This document shows positions 83 through 15,107 of a DNA stretch of 64,000 nucleotides, in pieces. Origin of the DNA: Phycisphaerae bacterium. Lineage in GTDB: Bacteria > Planctomycetota > Phycisphaerae > UBA1845. The stretch covers positions 1 through 64,000 of the forward strand of contig JAJDDQ010000087.1 of NCBI GenBank assembly GCA_029260215.1, in the 5' to 3' direction. The translations under genes were made by a program, and so were the position numbers. The notes beneath the pieces are model-generated. The model was not told where the DNA came from. It saw nothing but the letters and a program-made list of their open reading frames with translations, and did not search any database. Each line of letters starts with the position of its first letter. Within the stretch, counting starts at the first letter, position 1.

Positions 83-709
83 TAGGAGTTATCGATCCAC
101 GCCCCAAAATCGCTTGAGCTTACTTTGCGCTGTACTGCTAATGGCGACATAGGTGCCAATGGCGACGTCACCATCAACTGCAAGCTCGGTAGGGGTCGCA
201 TCATCGTCGACGGCCTATGCGACGGAACGATCTCGATCGGGCAGGACACCGGGTTGGCATCATTGATTCAGTTGACAGAAGGTTGATTCATTCATAAGAA
301 CCCCAAATCACTGGAAAAAACGGTCCTGGCGCTATCACCAGAGGGGGTGATTTCACCGAAAGCGGGGTTTCTACGAATGAATCAAGGTTTGGACGAGAAC
401 GGCACCGTCACAATCAACGCATCACAGGGCGACTTCAACGCCGCCGGCAGCATTCTCATCGGCCCCAATTCCATTCCGCTCGTATTGGACCCGATCGTCA
501 ACGATGGCTGCATTCAAATACTCGACGACAGTGCCGACGGCAGCCACGGCGACCTTATCGGGGACCTAAACATCATCGGTTGTCACGCAACAGCCGACGA
601 TCTCGGCATCAGCGTCGAGGGCACGCAAACCGGCGACGTGACCATCACGCAGACCGGCTGCACCAATCCAGGTCGTCGCGTCCGCCTGCCCGTGATACGC
701 ATCGTGTAG
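83..709 (+). pseudogene. Decayed or split ORF with Gly/Asp-rich 'GDVTI' repeats
   Basis: One frame is open from about 83 to a TGA at 284-286. The same frame reopens as a 120-residue ORF at 347-709. Both halves carry the same short motif (NGDVTIN in the first, GDVTITQTG and GTVTINASQGDF in the second), which resembles the repeated units of secreted beta-structured proteins. The shared frame, the in-frame stop and the lack of a convincing start suggest the remnant of a longer surface or secreted protein. The 347-709 segment could still be a short independent gene. Function is unknown and nothing enzymatic is visible. Confidence 0.35.
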
Positions 710-887
710 CCACCGTTTCGGGATAAGTCCGGTGCCCGCCCCAAAAGCTGGACAACACACGCACGCATGGATAGGGTTTCGCCCGGCGGTCGGGAGACGG
801 TATGCCCCTTGGCCCCTTTCACGCTGCGAGCCTGCGTGCCGACGCTCGACCCGCAGCCGATGTGTCACCCCCTTATATGGGTTGTCT

Positions 888-2117
888 ATGTATCCAGAAC
901 TTTGGGTAATGCCCGGAACCGGTTGGACCCTCAAGAGCTACGGGTTCATGATGATGGCTGGCTTCCTCAGCGCGGTCTATTTCGCCATGCGCCGGGCGAT
1001 GCGGGCCAAAACCGACCCCGACGAAATCCTGAACATCGCGTTCTACGCGCTGGTCTCCGGCGTCATCGGTTCGCGCATCATGTTTGTGTGGCATTATTGG
1101 GACGAGTCCTTTGCCGACGCCCCCGACCGTTTTTGGGCTATCATTAATCTGACGCGCGGCGGGCTGGAATTCCTGGGCGGCGTGCTTTTTACCATTCCGG
1201 TCGTTGTGGTGTACATGTGGCGGAAGAAACTTTCCATCCGCCTCTTCGGAGACTTCTTGGCGATCATGATCCCCTGGGCGCTGGGCTTTGGCAGGCTTGG
1301 TTGTTTTCTGAACGGCTGCTGCTTCGGCGGAGCCTGTGTCGATGCCCACGGTCAGCCTGCTTCTTCGCTCGCGGTCGCGTTTCCTTTCGGCAGCCCCGCC
1401 GCCATCCGCCAGTGGGAGGAGCGGGAGATCACATTCCCCGCTGAGTTGACCTACGACGGCGTGGGCGACGGGAATTCGAGCATTTTCGGGGCTACGCTCC
1501 TCGGGCGGGATCTGGTCAGCATGACGCCCGAGGCTCGCGAAAAACCGCTCCGCCAACTAGAGCGAATCGAGGAAATTTACCGTCGTGCGGAGAAGAACGA
1601 TCCCGAAAGCGAACAGACAAAGCAACTGAAGGCTGAATACGAAGCCACCCGGAGCATCGCCGAAGATCATGCGAATCTAACGGTCCCGCTCATGTTGGCT
1701 ACCCATTATCCATCGCGTGAGGATCCAACGCGCATCACCACGATGCGCGAAATCCGAGACTTGGCCCGTGCCCATGACGCACGCTGGGTCCACCCCACGC
1801 AACTCTACGCCGCCGTCGCAGGCCTTCTGCTGGCCATCATGCTGGCACGTGTGTTTCACCGCCGGAAGCGCCACGGCTTGGTGTGGGGCCTGTTCCTGCT
1901 GACCTATCCACCGACACGCATCTTTCTGGAGATGATCCGCTCGGACAATCCTCTGGACGCGTACGGTTTGACCGTATCACAGGCTATCAGTTTGACCATG
2001 ATGGTCGGCGGTGTAATCTGGCTCGTCGTGATCTACAAGTTCATGCCGGAGCGCTCGCCGATTCTGAAACCGTGGTACCCGCCTCAGGAAGGCGAAGCCC
2101 AGCCCGCCAGCGCGTAA
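888..2117 (+). CDS. lgt: Prolipoprotein diacylglyceryl transferase with a large internal insertion
   Basis: Lgt transfers diacylglycerol from phosphatidylglycerol to the lipobox cysteine of prolipoproteins in the inner membrane, the first step of lipoprotein maturation. The 409-residue product has the family layout: an N-terminal membrane segment after MYPELW, the signature GRLGCFLNGCCFGG near residues 137-150, and a C-terminal HPTQLYAAVAG segment followed by further membrane helices. Between the last two lies roughly 125 extra, mostly charged residues, so the protein is well above the usual 260-300 residues. ATG 888 is preferred because the protein similarity begins there; the frame is open further upstream without recognisable sequence. 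Substrates in this window include the lipoproteins at 15168, 24750 and 37453. Confidence 0.9.
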   Translation: MYPELWVMPGTGWTLKSYGFMMMAGFLSAVYFAMRRAMRAKTDPDEILNIAFYALVSGVIGSRIMFVWHYWDESFADAPDRFWAIINLTRGGLEFLGGVLFTIPVVVVYMWRKKLSIRLFGDFLAIMIPWALGFGRLGCFLNGCCFGGACVDAHGQPASSLAVAFPFGSPAAIRQWEEREITFPAELTYDGVGDGNSSIFGATLLGRDLVSMTPEAREKPLRQLERIEEIYRRAEKNDPESEQTKQLKAEYEATRSIAEDHANLTVPLMLATHYPSREDPTRITTMREIRDLARAHDARWVHPTQLYAAVAGLLLAIMLARVFHRRKRHGLVWGLFLLTYPPTRIFLEMIRSDNPLDAYGLTVSQAISLTMMVGGVIWLVVIYKFMPERSPILKPWYPPQEGEAQPASA

Positions 2118-2366
2118 ACCGTTCAGTTCCAAAACCGGCCCTGACCATCTGGAAAGCAACTCTGCCGCGACGCGTCTCCGCCGGAGCCTGCCAGTCTTGG
2201 GCTACCGCACTGCGCAGCGTGAGAAGTTGGTCAAGATTGGGGCGAACTTCTTCCGACACTTCAGGTACGTGTCATTCCGTATGGCTGACGTGGCGACAAA
2301 GTTGCGTCATCGGAGGCGGCCAATGCGAAACGTCGGTCCGTGCAGATATTTCAACTCCCCAGCCGC

Positions 2367-2380
2367 TGTGACCGGTCACA
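2367..2380. promoter_or_regulatory. Perfect 14-bp palindrome TGTGACCGGTCACA
   Basis: The palindrome lies 34 bp upstream of the chosen start of the glycosyltransferase at 2415. It looks like a dimeric-regulator operator. It resembles CRP-family half-sites (TGTGA and TCACA), but the spacing is 4 bp instead of the usual 6. It is the only copy I noticed, and its role is inferred. Confidence 0.3.
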
Positions 2381-2414
2381 TCGGCCCGTTGCCTCTGCCG
2401 GCGAAAGCCCGGAC

Positions 2415-3809
2415 ATGATCGAGCAGCAGCGAACGGCGAATGCAGTACCGCCGGTGAAAGCGCCCGACCTCGAGACACTTCGTACGGGCGATCGGATATT
2501 GATCCTCAACAATCCCGGTGACTTCACACGCAACTATCTCCAGGACATGGGCGCGGCATGCGAACGCCTCGGGTTGAGGCCTGCCACCCTCGAACTCAGT
2601 GATATATGGTCGCGGAGCAGTGCCGGGACGCCGATTGACTGGAAATCCTTAGCCGAAAATTTGCACAATGGCGGGTTTCGGGCCGCCATCAGCACAGGCC
2701 ACAACGGCGTTTTCGATCTGCCTATGACGCAGGACGTCTCGGGCCGAAAGGTGCCGTTTCTACAGATGCTCGGCATTCCGCATATTCAATGGTGGACCGA
2801 CCATCCCCATTGGGCGCACGAGCGCGTCGCGCTGAGCGAGCAAGTGCAGCCGGCGTTGCGGTCTGAGAATCACCACGTGTTCGTCAAGTGCGAACTCGCC
2901 GCCGGTGAGATTCGTCAGTTCCTGAAATGGCCTCATGTGTACGGACTGCCTGTCGCTGAAAACCCCGACCGTTTGAAACCGGCCCGTGACGTCTCGCCCG
3001 ATTGTGATGTTGTGGCTGTGGTCGGTTCGCCGCCGGAGCTTGATCCGGACTTGAAGCCGTTTCTCAAGGAGGACGACCCGGACGTGTCAGCCATGTCCGA
3101 ATGTGTGGCTGCCAAAGTTCGTCAAAAACTATCCAGTCTGTGGGCGGAGAGGGGGCCGGCCAATATCCAAAACGAACTCAACGCTCTTGGAGACAATTGG
3201 GTGGCGGCCAGGGCGACCGACGCGCTCACGGGTTCGTTTCGTGTCTTTTGTCGCCTGGAGCCGCAGTACCCGCAGGCTTGCTCGTGGATACGCGAGAACT
3301 ATCGCGTTTACTTCGACGCATTGCACATTCTTTGGGATTTCGGACGGTGGCAACGCACGTTCACCCTCGCGTATCTCGCACGCTACTTTCGCGTTCGTGT
3401 TCTTGGAAATCCAGACTGGTCATCGCTGGAACTCGGCGGCTCGCCCCGGATACCTCACGACGCGCAACCGGCTACGTATGCGAGCGGAACACTCGGCATC
3501 AACATTTCGCAATGCAATGACGAGGAAGGGATTACGCACAAACCGTTCCAAATGGCAGCGTGCGGTGTGCCGATGATTCATATCGAACGCAAAGGGCTTT
3601 CCGATTGCTTTGCGCCCGATGAAGAATTCATGGCATTCCTGACGCCGCGCGAAGCGCGCGACGCCGTCACGGCATTGCTCGATGACCGAGAACGCCGTGA
3701 AGCGATGGCCTTCGCCGCACGCAATCGCGTCATTTGCGATCACACCTGGGACAAACGACTCGTCGAAATCTTCCACGCGACAGGGTTGCCACTGGAGGCC
3801 GCCTGTTGA
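2415..3809 (+). CDS. CgeB/YkvP-type glycosyltransferase
   Basis: The product has 464 residues. Its C-terminal third reads like the CgeB/Glyco_trans_1_2 family: GITHKPFQMAACGVPMI, then a loop with an acidic patch, and a closing RNRVICDHTWDKRLVEIF. In this family that region belongs to the donor-binding Rossmann domain of a GT-B enzyme. The N-terminal half (TGDRILILNNPGDFTRNYLQ onward) would be the acceptor domain. No signal peptide or membrane segment is visible, so a cytoplasmic role in glycan or glycoprotein synthesis is expected. ATG 2415 is chosen over the longer open frame because the upstream residues look like translated non-coding DNA. The next gene is another predicted glycosyltransferase on the same strand. 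Confidence 0.7.
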   Translation: MIEQQRTANAVPPVKAPDLETLRTGDRILILNNPGDFTRNYLQDMGAACERLGLRPATLELSDIWSRSSAGTPIDWKSLAENLHNGGFRAAISTGHNGVFDLPMTQDVSGRKVPFLQMLGIPHIQWWTDHPHWAHERVALSEQVQPALRSENHHVFVKCELAAGEIRQFLKWPHVYGLPVAENPDRLKPARDVSPDCDVVAVVGSPPELDPDLKPFLKEDDPDVSAMSECVAAKVRQKLSSLWAERGPANIQNELNALGDNWVAARATDALTGSFRVFCRLEPQYPQACSWIRENYRVYFDALHILWDFGRWQRTFTLAYLARYFRVRVLGNPDWSSLELGGSPRIPHDAQPATYASGTLGINISQCNDEEGITHKPFQMAACGVPMIHIERKGLSDCFAPDEEFMAFLTPREARDAVTALLDDRERREAMAFAARNRVICDHTWDKRLVEIFHATGLPLEAAC

Positions 3810-12526: not shown

Positions 12527-14401
12527 CTATCTGGTGCCGTGTGTGCGCTCGATCGCGCGAAACTCCGGATTAAAGCGTTCCTTCGAATTCTGAATCTGCG
12601 TCTTGAACGCGCGGAGTTCTTCGTCGCTCAACGCACCGTCGCCATCGAGGTCAGCCTCGGGGTGATGTTCGAGCACGCTTCGTATCTTCAACTGTTCGTA
12701 GAAATCGTTTCGCTCTTCATCGGTGAGTTCGCCATCGCCGTCGCGGTCCATTTCTTCGAATTGGTGTCGCTCCATCCAATTCAATGCGAATTCCTTGAAC
12801 GACTTTACATAGGTACGAATGTCGTCAGCAGTCGGCTCTATCGCGGTGTTGTCCAGAATCCAAATCCGATTGATCGCGATCGCGTTCATGTGCATGGCCT
12901 TGGCGTCCGCACGCGAAGTGTGAACGCGTTGGACCCTTTCACCGGGCTTGCCGACCTTTTCCGCAACGTCCGCCCGCTGATGCGGTTTGACCTTGGACGG
13001 CGGCCGATCATAGCTGACCGCGTGAAATGCCTCACCGATGCTCAGTTGACCGTCCTTGTCGTAGTCGGCAAAGGGAATGCCTCCTATCACCGCGTCCGGG
13101 TTCAGCATCGCCTTGGCCAACAGATAATGTGTGGTTTCATCCATATCCACCCGACCGTCACCGTTGGTGTCAGGCACATCAATCGTCGCAAGGCGATTGT
13201 TAAGCTCGGTCACTGCCTGCCCAGCTCGTTCGAGCGTTTTGAAGTGAAGATGATGGAGTTCGTGCATTTCATCTTCAGACATTTCAAGATGTTCGTAGTC
13301 ATGGGCGTGCGGAGTGTGATCGTGGTCGTGGTGCGCATGGGGGTGTTCCTTTCCCCCGTCGGCCAACGCGAAGCCGCCCCACGCTCCGATGAGCGTGACA
13401 GCCAGCCCACTCCAAACGAGCCCGTTTCCTCCTTGATTAGAATGCAAAACCATATCGATTCTCCTTTCAATGGTTGCCGGGTTGGCCGCCATGTACGCAG
13501 GGTGAAAGGCCGCGATCGCGCGGGCAGGGCGTCGCTTGGCTGCGTCCAGTAAGCAACGCGCGTATTCGCCCGCGGAGAGTCTGCCCCGACGCAGGGCCCA
13601 TTCGTCACAGGCACACTCTCTTGCCAAATCAATCCTTCGATTCACCCAGTACACGACAGGCCAAAAGAACAGCAACGTTCCGACGATCCTTTGGAAGCAA
13701 CCCACGAGCACGTCGCCTCGCCGGAGATGAGCGACCTCGTGAACAATGACGGTTTCAAGATGTTTCGCACAGTGCAAGTGTCGATCAGAAAGTACCAGCA
13801 ACGGCCGCCGCCACCCGATGACAAACGGTGCGGCTGTATCACCAGAGACCCTGACCTGCGGAACGCGCGCGACGCGCAACTTGCGACAGGTGGCGGCGAC
13901 AAGATCGGTGAGTTCGTGCGGCGGCTGGGGTAGTCCTTCGTACTCTGTGCGAAGTCGGTTACAGGCGGCTGCACGACGCAGAAATTTGTATGCGACGATG
14001 AATACATAGATAGGCCACAACCATTGCAGCCAATTGACTTGCCTCGCGGGCGATTCAATCGGATGAGAGGCGGTCAATGTGCGTTCGTGATTCCGCATGC
14101 CCAAGACATCGATGTGTTCAAGAGATTGCCCGGTGGCTGCGCGCGTCGTGGTCGAAACGACATCCTCACAGACGCGGGCCAGTGAAAACGAAAATGACGG
14201 TGACACGGGCAGAACGAATTTGAGCAGCACGATGCACCACAACGCTATTTGCGCCGTCGAAGAAAGTTTCCGGTGGCCGACGGAGACGATCATCCAGGTA
14301 AGAATCGCCAGCAGCGTGCCGTAACACAATGCCTGGAGAATCCAATCGAGCACGACGTCTGAATTCAATATCGCCGAGAGAAATTCGAGGACTGCATTCA
14401 T
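12527..14401 (-). CDS. BlaR1/MecR1-like M56 metallopeptidase with His-rich linker and four EF-hands
   Basis: The 624-residue protein has N-terminal membrane helices (about 18-40, 48-66, 124-140) and an M56 zinc-peptidase motif HEVAHLRRGD (His221, Glu222, His225). The downstream ARECACDEW supplies the third ligand (Glu262). A membrane helix lies at about 328-348. In place of the usual penicillin-binding sensor, a His-rich stretch at 353-387 follows, then four EF-hand loops: DTNGDGRVDMDE (~411), DYDKDGQLSIGE (~447), DRDGDGELTDEE (~555) and DLDGDGALSDEE (~595). By analogy with BlaR1 it should sense an extracytoplasmic signal and cause proteolysis of its BlaI partner. The ligand is inferred to be a metal ion or a calcium-dependent signal. 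Overlaps the BlaI gene by 4 nt. Confidence 0.8.
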   Translation of the reverse strand: MNAVLEFLSAILNSDVVLDWILQALCYGTLLAILTWMIVSVGHRKLSSTAQIALWCIVLLKFVLPVSPSFSFSLARVCEDVVSTTTRAATGQSLEHIDVLGMRNHERTLTASHPIESPARQVNWLQWLWPIYVFIVAYKFLRRAAACNRLRTEYEGLPQPPHELTDLVAATCRKLRVARVPQVRVSGDTAAPFVIGWRRPLLVLSDRHLHCAKHLETVIVHEVAHLRRGDVLVGCFQRIVGTLLFFWPVVYWVNRRIDLARECACDEWALRRGRLSAGEYARCLLDAAKRRPARAIAAFHPAYMAANPATIERRIDMVLHSNQGGNGLVWSGLAVTLIGAWGGFALADGGKEHPHAHHDHDHTPHAHDYEHLEMSEDEMHELHHLHFKTLERAGQAVTELNNRLATIDVPDTNGDGRVDMDETTHYLLAKAMLNPDAVIGGIPFADYDKDGQLSIGEAFHAVSYDRPPSKVKPHQRADVAEKVGKPGERVQRVHTSRADAKAMHMNAIAINRIWILDNTAIEPTADDIRTYVKSFKEFALNWMERHQFEEMDRDGDGELTDEERNDFYEQLKIRSVLEHHPEADLDGDGALSDEELRAFKTQIQNSKERFNPEFRAIERTHGTR

Positions 14402-14832
14402 CGCTCGCCTCCTTCCGTTCCCTCGGTCGATTGATTCGGGTTGCGATCTTTCCGCTCTCGTTCGGCGATTTTTTGTTCGATGCGGCGAAGATCCCCAGCC
14501 GAGAAGTCCGCCTCGCGCGCCAGTTGGAGCATTAGATCCTCCGCACGACCGTCGAAGACGTTTTGAAGAAACTGAGACACGCGATGCCCGAGTACCTGAT
14601 CGCGGCGGACTGCGTGCGTGTAGACGAAAGGCTGACGCGCGTTGTCCACGTGCAGCGCGTGCTTATCCCCCAGTTGTTTCATCATGGTCATGACGGTGGT
14701 GTAGGCTGGCTCTTCACCGCTTTGAGCGGCAAGGGCGTCCTTGACCTGCCGAACCGTTTGAGGCCCGTTTCGCCAAAGAACCTTGAGAATGCGAAGCTCG
14801 GCGGCGGTGATGTGCGGCGTTACGTTTGGCAT
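14398..14832 (-). CDS. BlaI/MecI/CopY-family winged-helix repressor
   Basis: The 144-residue protein follows the family pattern: ITAAELRILKVLWRNGPQTV as the first helices of the winged helix, EPAYTTVMTMMKQLGDK as the recognition helix, and a C-terminal dimerisation region with VFDGRAEDLMLQLAREA. It should repress its own operon until cleaved by the M56 partner encoded next to it. ATG 14832 is preferred over a start at 14889, because the longer frame would run through the operator palindromes, and AAAGG lies just upstream of 14832. The C-terminal tail (NPNQSTEGTEGGER) is likely disordered. Confidence 0.88.
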   Translation of the reverse strand: MPNVTPHITAAELRILKVLWRNGPQTVRQVKDALAAQSGEEPAYTTVMTMMKQLGDKHALHVDNARQPFVYTHAVRRDQVLGHRVSQFLQNVFDGRAEDLMLQLAREADFSAGDLRRIEQKIAERERKDRNPNQSTEGTEGGER

Positions 14833-14844
14833 GTCCAACCTTTC

Positions 14845-14881
14845 TACTAAGTATATCGGCATGTTACTATGTATATAGTAA
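14845..14881 (-). promoter_or_regulatory. BlaI-type operator region
   Basis: TTACTATGTATATAGTAA at 14864-14881 is nearly perfectly palindromic (TTACTAT and ATAGTAA arms). A related half-site TACTAAGTATAT lies at 14845-14856. Both sit immediately upstream of the repressor start at 14832. BlaI/MecI-family operators have the same TAC-TA...TA-GTA architecture, so this is the likely autoregulatory site overlapping the promoter. Confidence 0.7.
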
Positions 14882-15107
14882 TTCGTCAACCCTAAATACT
14901 CTTTTGGGTTCTTTTCCGAACAAGCTACTGAGCGAAGTGGCCTTGGCGCTCTGAAAACGCTGATTTCACGAGGTTTTGGCCGATCTCGCGCCTCGGGGAT
15001 TCCGTCCGTAAGCCCAAGCGCGAATTGTGTGGTAAGTCGTTGTCACGCATGGTGTTTCGATCCACCATCCTTCCAACAACTTTTTGGGATGAGAACCATC
15101 AAAGCAG

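Follow-up and report, generated by a model that had tools for sequence, protein, structure and literature searches.

The window, that is the whole stretch of DNA analysed, comprises 64,000 nucleotides (positions 1 to 64,000 of contig JAJDDQ010000087.1) from a Phycisphaerae bacterium. Its minus strand carries two overlapping genes, one for a BlaI-type repressor and one for a BlaR1-type M56 metalloprotease with EF-hand loops in its C-terminal part (M56-EF), preceded by a promoter region that contains two putative operators (Table 1). The beta-lactam receptors BlaR1 and MecR1 are the most familiar M56 antirepressors.

Table 1. Features of the blaI-m56 locus, in window positions; residue numbers refer to M56-EF
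Feature	Position	Strand	Remarks
m56-EF gene	12527..14401	-	BlaR1-type M56 membrane metalloprotease of 624 aa with EF-hand outer domain; ATG start
EF-hand loop 4, residues 584-595	12617..12652	-	DLDGDGALSDEE; position-1 Asp in 17/36
EF-hand loop 3, residues 552-563	12713..12748	-	DRDGDGELTDEE; position-1 Asp in 26/36
EF-hand loop 2, residues 446-457	13031..13066	-	DYDKDGQLSIGE
EF-hand loop 1, residues 411-422	13136..13171	-	DTNGDGRVDMDE
His-rich tract, residues 353-387	13241..13345	-	13 His; not conserved in relatives
Last membrane helix (model helix 328-346) and small-x-small signal-peptidase-like site (residues 347-349)	13355..13420	-	From structure model and family alignment
HEVAH zinc motif, residues 221-225; third ligand E262	13727..13741	-	Aligned to BlaR1 H201/E202/H205 and E242; invariant in 36/36
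blaI repressor gene	14398..14832	-	m56 start overlapped by ATGA; listed ORF extends to 14889
Putative blaI-m56 promoter-operator	14845..14889	-	-35 TTGACG (14889-14884), -10 TAACAT (14866-14861), 17-bp spacer; from 26-locus alignment
Putative operator O2, imperfect repeat CGATATACTTAGTA	14845..14858	.	Just downstream of -10; conserved in 26-row alignment
Putative operator O1, inverted repeat TACTATATACATAGTA	14865..14880	.	Within -35/-10 spacer; sole mismatch-free TACTATNNNNATAGTA in the 4.97-Mb assembly

The initial annotation of this DNA had recognised an M56 motif and a pairing with BlaI, and both were borne out at the same place, on the minus strand. Residues 27-318 of M56-EF match Peptidase_M56 (PF05569) with 122.4 bits against a cut-off of 31, and the same family is matched by all 36 members of the subfamily described below at E 0.01. 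The catalytic residues given for Staphylococcus aureus BlaR1 in the relevant passages of PMC9834060 are H201/E202/H205/D210/E242/D246/Y261/R293-R294. Alignment to this protein places their equivalents at H221/E222/H225/D230/E262/D266/Y280/R313-R314, the Arg pair R313-R314 lying beyond the alignment and being matched by eye. The complete set (zinc ligands, catalytic Glu, both Asp, Tyr and the Arg pair) is invariant in 36 of 36 rows of the family alignment A3, which comprises the window protein and 35 homologues. The upstream gene that overlaps m56 matches PF03965 with 91.5 bits (cut-off 22.6) as well as BlaI/MecI structures, and its start at 14832 is likely from comparison with homologues.

The likeness to BlaR1 ends with the protease. 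The NCBIfam model blaR1_generic reaches 62.5 bits against a cut-off of 400, and its match is confined to residues 32-317. Neither a transpeptidase nor a beta-lactamase family occurs among the 13 families matched by the 36 members at E 0.01. Beta-lactam sensing was rejected, as none of the 36 matches a penicillin-binding family; the proposal that EF-hands stand in place of a beta-lactam sensor thus holds for the window protein and extends to the whole subfamily. For a predicted model of full-length M56-EF (mean pLDDT 80, pTM 0.54), the six top Foldseek matches among solved structures are all BlaR1 chains (best 8exq, E 3.3e-5). Compared with entire BlaR1 chains the model scores poorly (query-normalised TM-score 0.29-0.32, rmsd 7-16), since its outer domain is a different one and is placed differently. 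By homology, the protease would face the inside of the cell and the C-terminal EF-hand domain the outside.

Four EF-hand loops had been proposed for this outer part, and the loops are canonical and far above what shuffling produces. In each of the four, positions 1, 3 and 5 are Asp or Asn, position 6 is Gly and position 12 is Glu. When residues 352-624 were shuffled, 22 of 20000 shuffles gave one such loop and none gave two or more. As the four loops keep the canonical ligand positions, the sequence does not suggest EF-hands that are unable to bind. The Pfam models EF-hand_5, EF-hand_1 and EF-hand_6 score over their cut-offs in M56-EF and EF-hand_7 slightly below (29.5 against 30). In the family alignment D411 of EF1 is kept in 35/36 rows and E422 in 34/36 (Glu or Asp at position 12 in 35/36), while D446 and E457 of EF2 are kept in 33/36 and 34/36, and the distance between the two loops is exactly 35 residues in 32/36. 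The second pair is often lost, position-1 Asp being absent from EF3 in 10 and from EF4 in 19 of the 36 members. EF1-EF2 is followed by a conserved helix of non-EF type (W514 in 31/36, P523 in 34/36), beyond which part of the family has EF3-EF4 and the rest a tail without them. EF-hand_5 is matched at E 0.01 by 24 members, and in the other 12 the EF-hand assignment comes from the alignment columns. The family profile also matches EF-hand pairs of solved proteins. Helices border the EF loops in both predicted models, although structural matches are weak: for the isolated outer domain there is no confident fold match (best Foldseek E 0.27; VIA Z 2.7 or less), and the EF-hand proteins that VIA returns, solely at Z 2.7 or less, neither establish nor rule out an EF-hand fold. 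As judged from conservation, the EF1-EF2 pair is the core of the outer domain, and for this reason calcium is the ligand that we favour.

M56-EF is a member of a conserved planctomycete subfamily. The full architecture was found in relatives from 18 of 60 related genomes (L004-L021). A scan of contigs from named genomes gave 51 relatives, of which 36 (L035-L070) were taken as the subfamily and 15 are remoter M56 proteins. The 36 are labelled Phycisphaerae or Phycisphaerales in 23 cases, other planctomycetes in 10, and otherwise Thermoanaerobaculales (L056), 'Alphaproteobacteria' (L037) and an unplaced bacterium (L043). L056 and L037 nest within the group in the tree; their labels could reflect misbinning or transfer, which are indistinguishable here. 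The Thermoanaerobaculales contig has a similar operator together with the same M56 subfamily. In a class sample of 198 genomes the full-length family (E < 1e-190) occurs in 16, all in the window's order, and in a 17th genome the protease part alone matches (1.5e-41). Second, diverged family members lie at G028:C33:4291-5544 and G485:C63:896-2149, in genomes with no second match to the operator profile. The window's genome has one other M56/BlaI pair over the cut-offs (contig C38 of the assembly, L002), with a 922-aa M56 gene at 274-3042 and its partner at 3055-3456, both on the minus strand; this M56 protein has a different outer part, with no EF-hand loops in its translation.

A script placed blaI upstream of m56 in 29 of 36 named loci, and in three of the seven misses the locus starts no more than 360 bases from a contig end. 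The BlaI proteins align in 28 rows with a mean column identity of 65%. In 37 loci, where genes were called by a crude longest-ORF method and some contigs are short, only m56 and blaI recur widely. The loci of the four nearest relatives (L035-L038) share one gene on either side, identified in the member scanned as DUF3592 (upstream) and GHL10 (downstream), but these loci are too clumped for the shared flanks to be weighed. The GHL10 glycosidase gene (L036:8339-9952, with counterparts in L035, L037 and L038) starts about 200-280 bp after m56 and may be either an added target in this lineage or plain synteny.

The layout upstream of blaI was found by script in 32 of 37 sequences (window included), and 26 of these could be aligned cleanly over 45 bp. 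In the consensus, a TTGAC-like -35 and a TANNNT -10 enclose the inverted repeat TACTATGNNCATAGTA, and a second, imperfect repeat follows the -10; the -35 and -10 of the blaI promoter were assigned by us on consensus and are to be regarded as putative. The operator profile R1 matches the window promoter with 45.3 bits and E 3.1e-11, the window being one of its rows. When it was run on 19 family genomes, with at most 150 first-look candidates scored per genome, the best match fell at blaI-m56 in 19 of 19 (E 1.8e-12 to 1.3e-4); in G010 it lies on another contig, before a blaI start. Some of these genomes supplied rows of the profile, so that matches at the own loci are not independent, and the informative part is the absence of others. 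Elsewhere, R1 matches reach E 1 at four places in the 19 genomes (same-site matches on the opposite strand set aside), one in G038 (C1:3015474, E 0.19), two in G018 and one in G004 (E 0.27-0.85). The G038 place (L102) has a second perfect O1 and an O2-like repeat, with no clear gene start beside it. With strict filters, 34 of 114 genomes of the order have a site (G479 has two; a second row in G018 is the opposite strand), and all 16 genomes with the full-length family in the class sample fall among these 34. Across the phylum one of 392 genomes was positive, the window's own, a count that says little on absence given the strict filters and the even draw. Operator and gene do not always go together: G041 has an operator with only a gene fragment, and G007 has two family genes and one R1 match, the other promoter (L050) being degenerate.

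An exact 11-base pattern occurs in 17 of the 19 genomes, once in each save for an extra copy in G038 and a non-symmetric extra in G054. The control pattern has 0-2 matches per genome and strand, near the pattern's own count; it is therefore the position of the matches and not their number that is the evidence. With up to two mismatches, O1 occurs at 12 places in the window's genome and the reversed control pattern at 62, which is no excess, and the deficit means little as the dinucleotide make-up of the control differs. The sole site with one mismatch (G000:C33:81383-81398, L087:1501) is followed after about 65 bp by a 352-aa gene for which no Pfam family passes the cut-off and whose product has a signal-peptide-like start and, by eye, LTxxQ-like motifs. 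As a BlaI target this site was judged a chance match, because the best relatives of the gene in 10 genomes lack a counterpart (best 3-5 mismatches). A wider BlaI regulon was likewise rejected as unlikely, given no excess of O1 over the control and no second strong operator among the candidates scored in the 19 genomes. On these searches the only clear operator in the window's genome is that of the blaI-m56 operon itself, although weaker or degenerate BlaI sites may exist elsewhere. Since the best R1 match is the own promoter and no neighbour besides blaI is conserved, blaI-m56 looks like a self-contained, self-regulating circuit of two genes rather than a beta-lactamase regulon.

Several known systems invite comparison with the locus. 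With BlaR1/MecR1 and BlaI/MecI, described in S. aureus and also in Bacillus licheniformis, it shares the M56 zinc catalytic residues, a neighbouring BlaI-type repressor and inverted repeats over the promoter. It differs in having an EF-hand domain where the penicillin-binding outer domain sits, with its constant spacing of the first two loops. It also appears to differ in that no beta-lactamase or PBP gene was seen either in the operon or with a strong R1 match in the 19 genomes, within the 150 candidates scored per genome. The relevant passages of PMC8457756 report a GACTAT/GTCTAT half-site for BlaI_1845 and BlaI_0696 of C. thermocellum, ordered sites for four protomers, and a regulon of BlaI_1845 that consists of its own single operon; the ACTAT half-site and the apparently self-only regulon of the present locus resemble this. 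Two further genes of the C. thermocellum operon are hypothetical, and the authors of that work tie one of them to peptidoglycan synthesis, whereas here the operon apparently consists of blaI and m56 only, and EF-hands are not mentioned in those passages on BlaI (PMC8457756). The circuit logic would thus be a variant of what is already known (PMC8457756). EfhP of Pseudomonas aeruginosa and CaBP of Caulobacter, the latter reported to be periplasmic, are EF-hand proteins tied to Ca2+ responses and share this motif with M56-EF; in the accounts seen they are separate Ca2+-binding proteins, with no mention of an antirepressor-protease fusion. No published fusion of M56 and EF-hands is among the matches listed in a literature search that mostly covered journals other than subscription ones. 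What is new here is then the EF-hand domain on a BlaR1 chassis, within the matches so listed, and the conserved double operator of the blaI promoter.

The best explanation as a whole, which we hold tentatively and with slightly less than even confidence, is a BlaR1-type antirepressor with an EF-hand Ca2+ sensor that autoregulates blaI-m56. It builds on what can be read from the DNA, namely the domains, with invariant catalytic residues and EF-hand ligands, the pairing with BlaI and an operator at the promoter of the operon itself. BlaI would repress from two operators covering its own promoter. M56-EF would sit across the membrane, the protease facing inwards and the EF-hand domain outwards, EF1-EF2 acting as the core sensor and EF3-EF4 as an optional second pair. 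Most likely, the outer domain binds Ca2+ and gates the cleavage of BlaI: occupancy by Ca2+, whether binding or loss, would alter the receptor in conformation or in stability and hence its protease activity, so the effect of calcium could run in either direction. Active M56 would then cleave BlaI and the operon would induce itself. The S. aureus repressor is cleaved at Asn101-Phe102, as stated in passages of PMC9834060; the aligned pair in the window protein is Q103-L104, a candidate cut site of which position 104 is nearly invariant in the 28 BlaI sequences. As no other gene with a clear operator was found, the output would have to come from the M56 protein itself, acting on other substrates or through its outer domain, or from weak BlaI sites.

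EF-hands can be purely structural. It could be that Ca2+ is bound constitutively and folds a domain whose signal is an envelope protein, a glycan or a misfolded protein, one form of this being dockerin-like Ca2+-dependent binding. We regard this as unlikely but far from negligible. The linkers of the outer part leave room for it, as they are variable, with 36-150 aa from the last membrane helix to EF1 and 14-231 aa from EF2 to W514, a variability that makes tight or stiff mechanical coupling appear less likely. Among the A3 members, Pfam Secretin (PF00263) is matched by one with E 2e-4 and DUF11 by one with E 5e-4, perhaps as additional segments inside long linkers. EF3-EF4 is optional and the W514/P523 helix could serve as an interaction surface, which also fit a structural role. 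Pfam Dockerin_1 is matched by 6 of 36 members at E 0.01 or better, and L061 scores over the cut-off (25.3 against 22.9 bits). However, position 12 is Glu in most of the loops, which is the EF-hand form, and EF1 and EF2 are both kept. The partner of dockerin is cohesin, and cohesin (PF00963) was found in 4 of 16 family genomes but in neither the other 12 nor the window's genome. A type I dockerin identity is weakened by these absences, and PF00404 is not among the matches of the window protein.

A second alternative is that M56 is effector as well as sensor and BlaI only sets its dose. M56-EF would then be a membrane protease tuned to demand, in the manner of Ste24/HtpX-like quality control, or its EF-hand domain would be shed by signal peptidase as a periplasmic Ca2+-binding protein. 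The operon shows no other product, given no second strong operator in 19 genomes and no conserved neighbour, and this is what such a reading would expect, although degenerate BlaI sites elsewhere could supply other targets. Shedding is conceivable because the last membrane helix is followed throughout most of the family by a small-x-small pattern (position 347 is T, A, S or G in 36/36; position 349 is A, G or S in 30/36) that resembles the signal-peptidase site of BlaR1, where S. aureus SpsB cuts after Gly331 and the sensor is shed, according to passages of PMC9834060. However, a small-x-small pattern is weak evidence, the window copy being A-D-G, and shedding in S. aureus is read there as turnover and not as output. 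We consider this alternative improbable.

The 35-residue His-rich stretch, which the initial annotation had read together with the EF-hand loops as fitting metal or calcium sensing, is present, with 13 His, a count that none of 5000 whole-protein shuffles reached, and it follows shortly after the last membrane helix. This tract, and a count of 9 per 35 in L039, the next highest in the corresponding linker, speak for a sensor of transition metals (Zn, Ni, Cu). Such a sensor is nevertheless very improbable, as that linker has no His in L035-L038, the four nearest relatives, while their operator and catalytic core are unchanged. The window protein and L035-L038 form a 99/97 clade in a tree whose bootstrap is not fully settled. 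By this comparison the tract looks lineage-specific and not part of the conserved design. Of the earlier view, the BlaR1-like protein with EF-hands replacing the beta-lactam sensor stands, and the His tract as the basis of a general metal sensor does not.

Returning to the favoured reading, the EF-hand antirepressor, its boldest form would be a self-contained module for sensing extracellular calcium, observed to date almost wholly in one planctomycete order (16/16 full-length holders in the 198-genome class sample). In it, a BlaR1 scaffold would bear an EF-hand sensor, the receptor would be its own only regulated product, and sensor and output would be one, perhaps by release of the EF-hand domain at the conserved signal-peptidase-like site. 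We give this combination as a whole only a small chance of being right. The apparently self-only operator raises the question of what role is played by a receptor circuit whose sole gene target is itself. If the reading is true, an EF-hand domain in the place of the sensor would reveal BlaR1 as a modular chassis that might respond to ionic signals, and the locus would be a candidate system in which extracellular Ca2+ is sensed directly across the membrane by way of a protease and a repressor.
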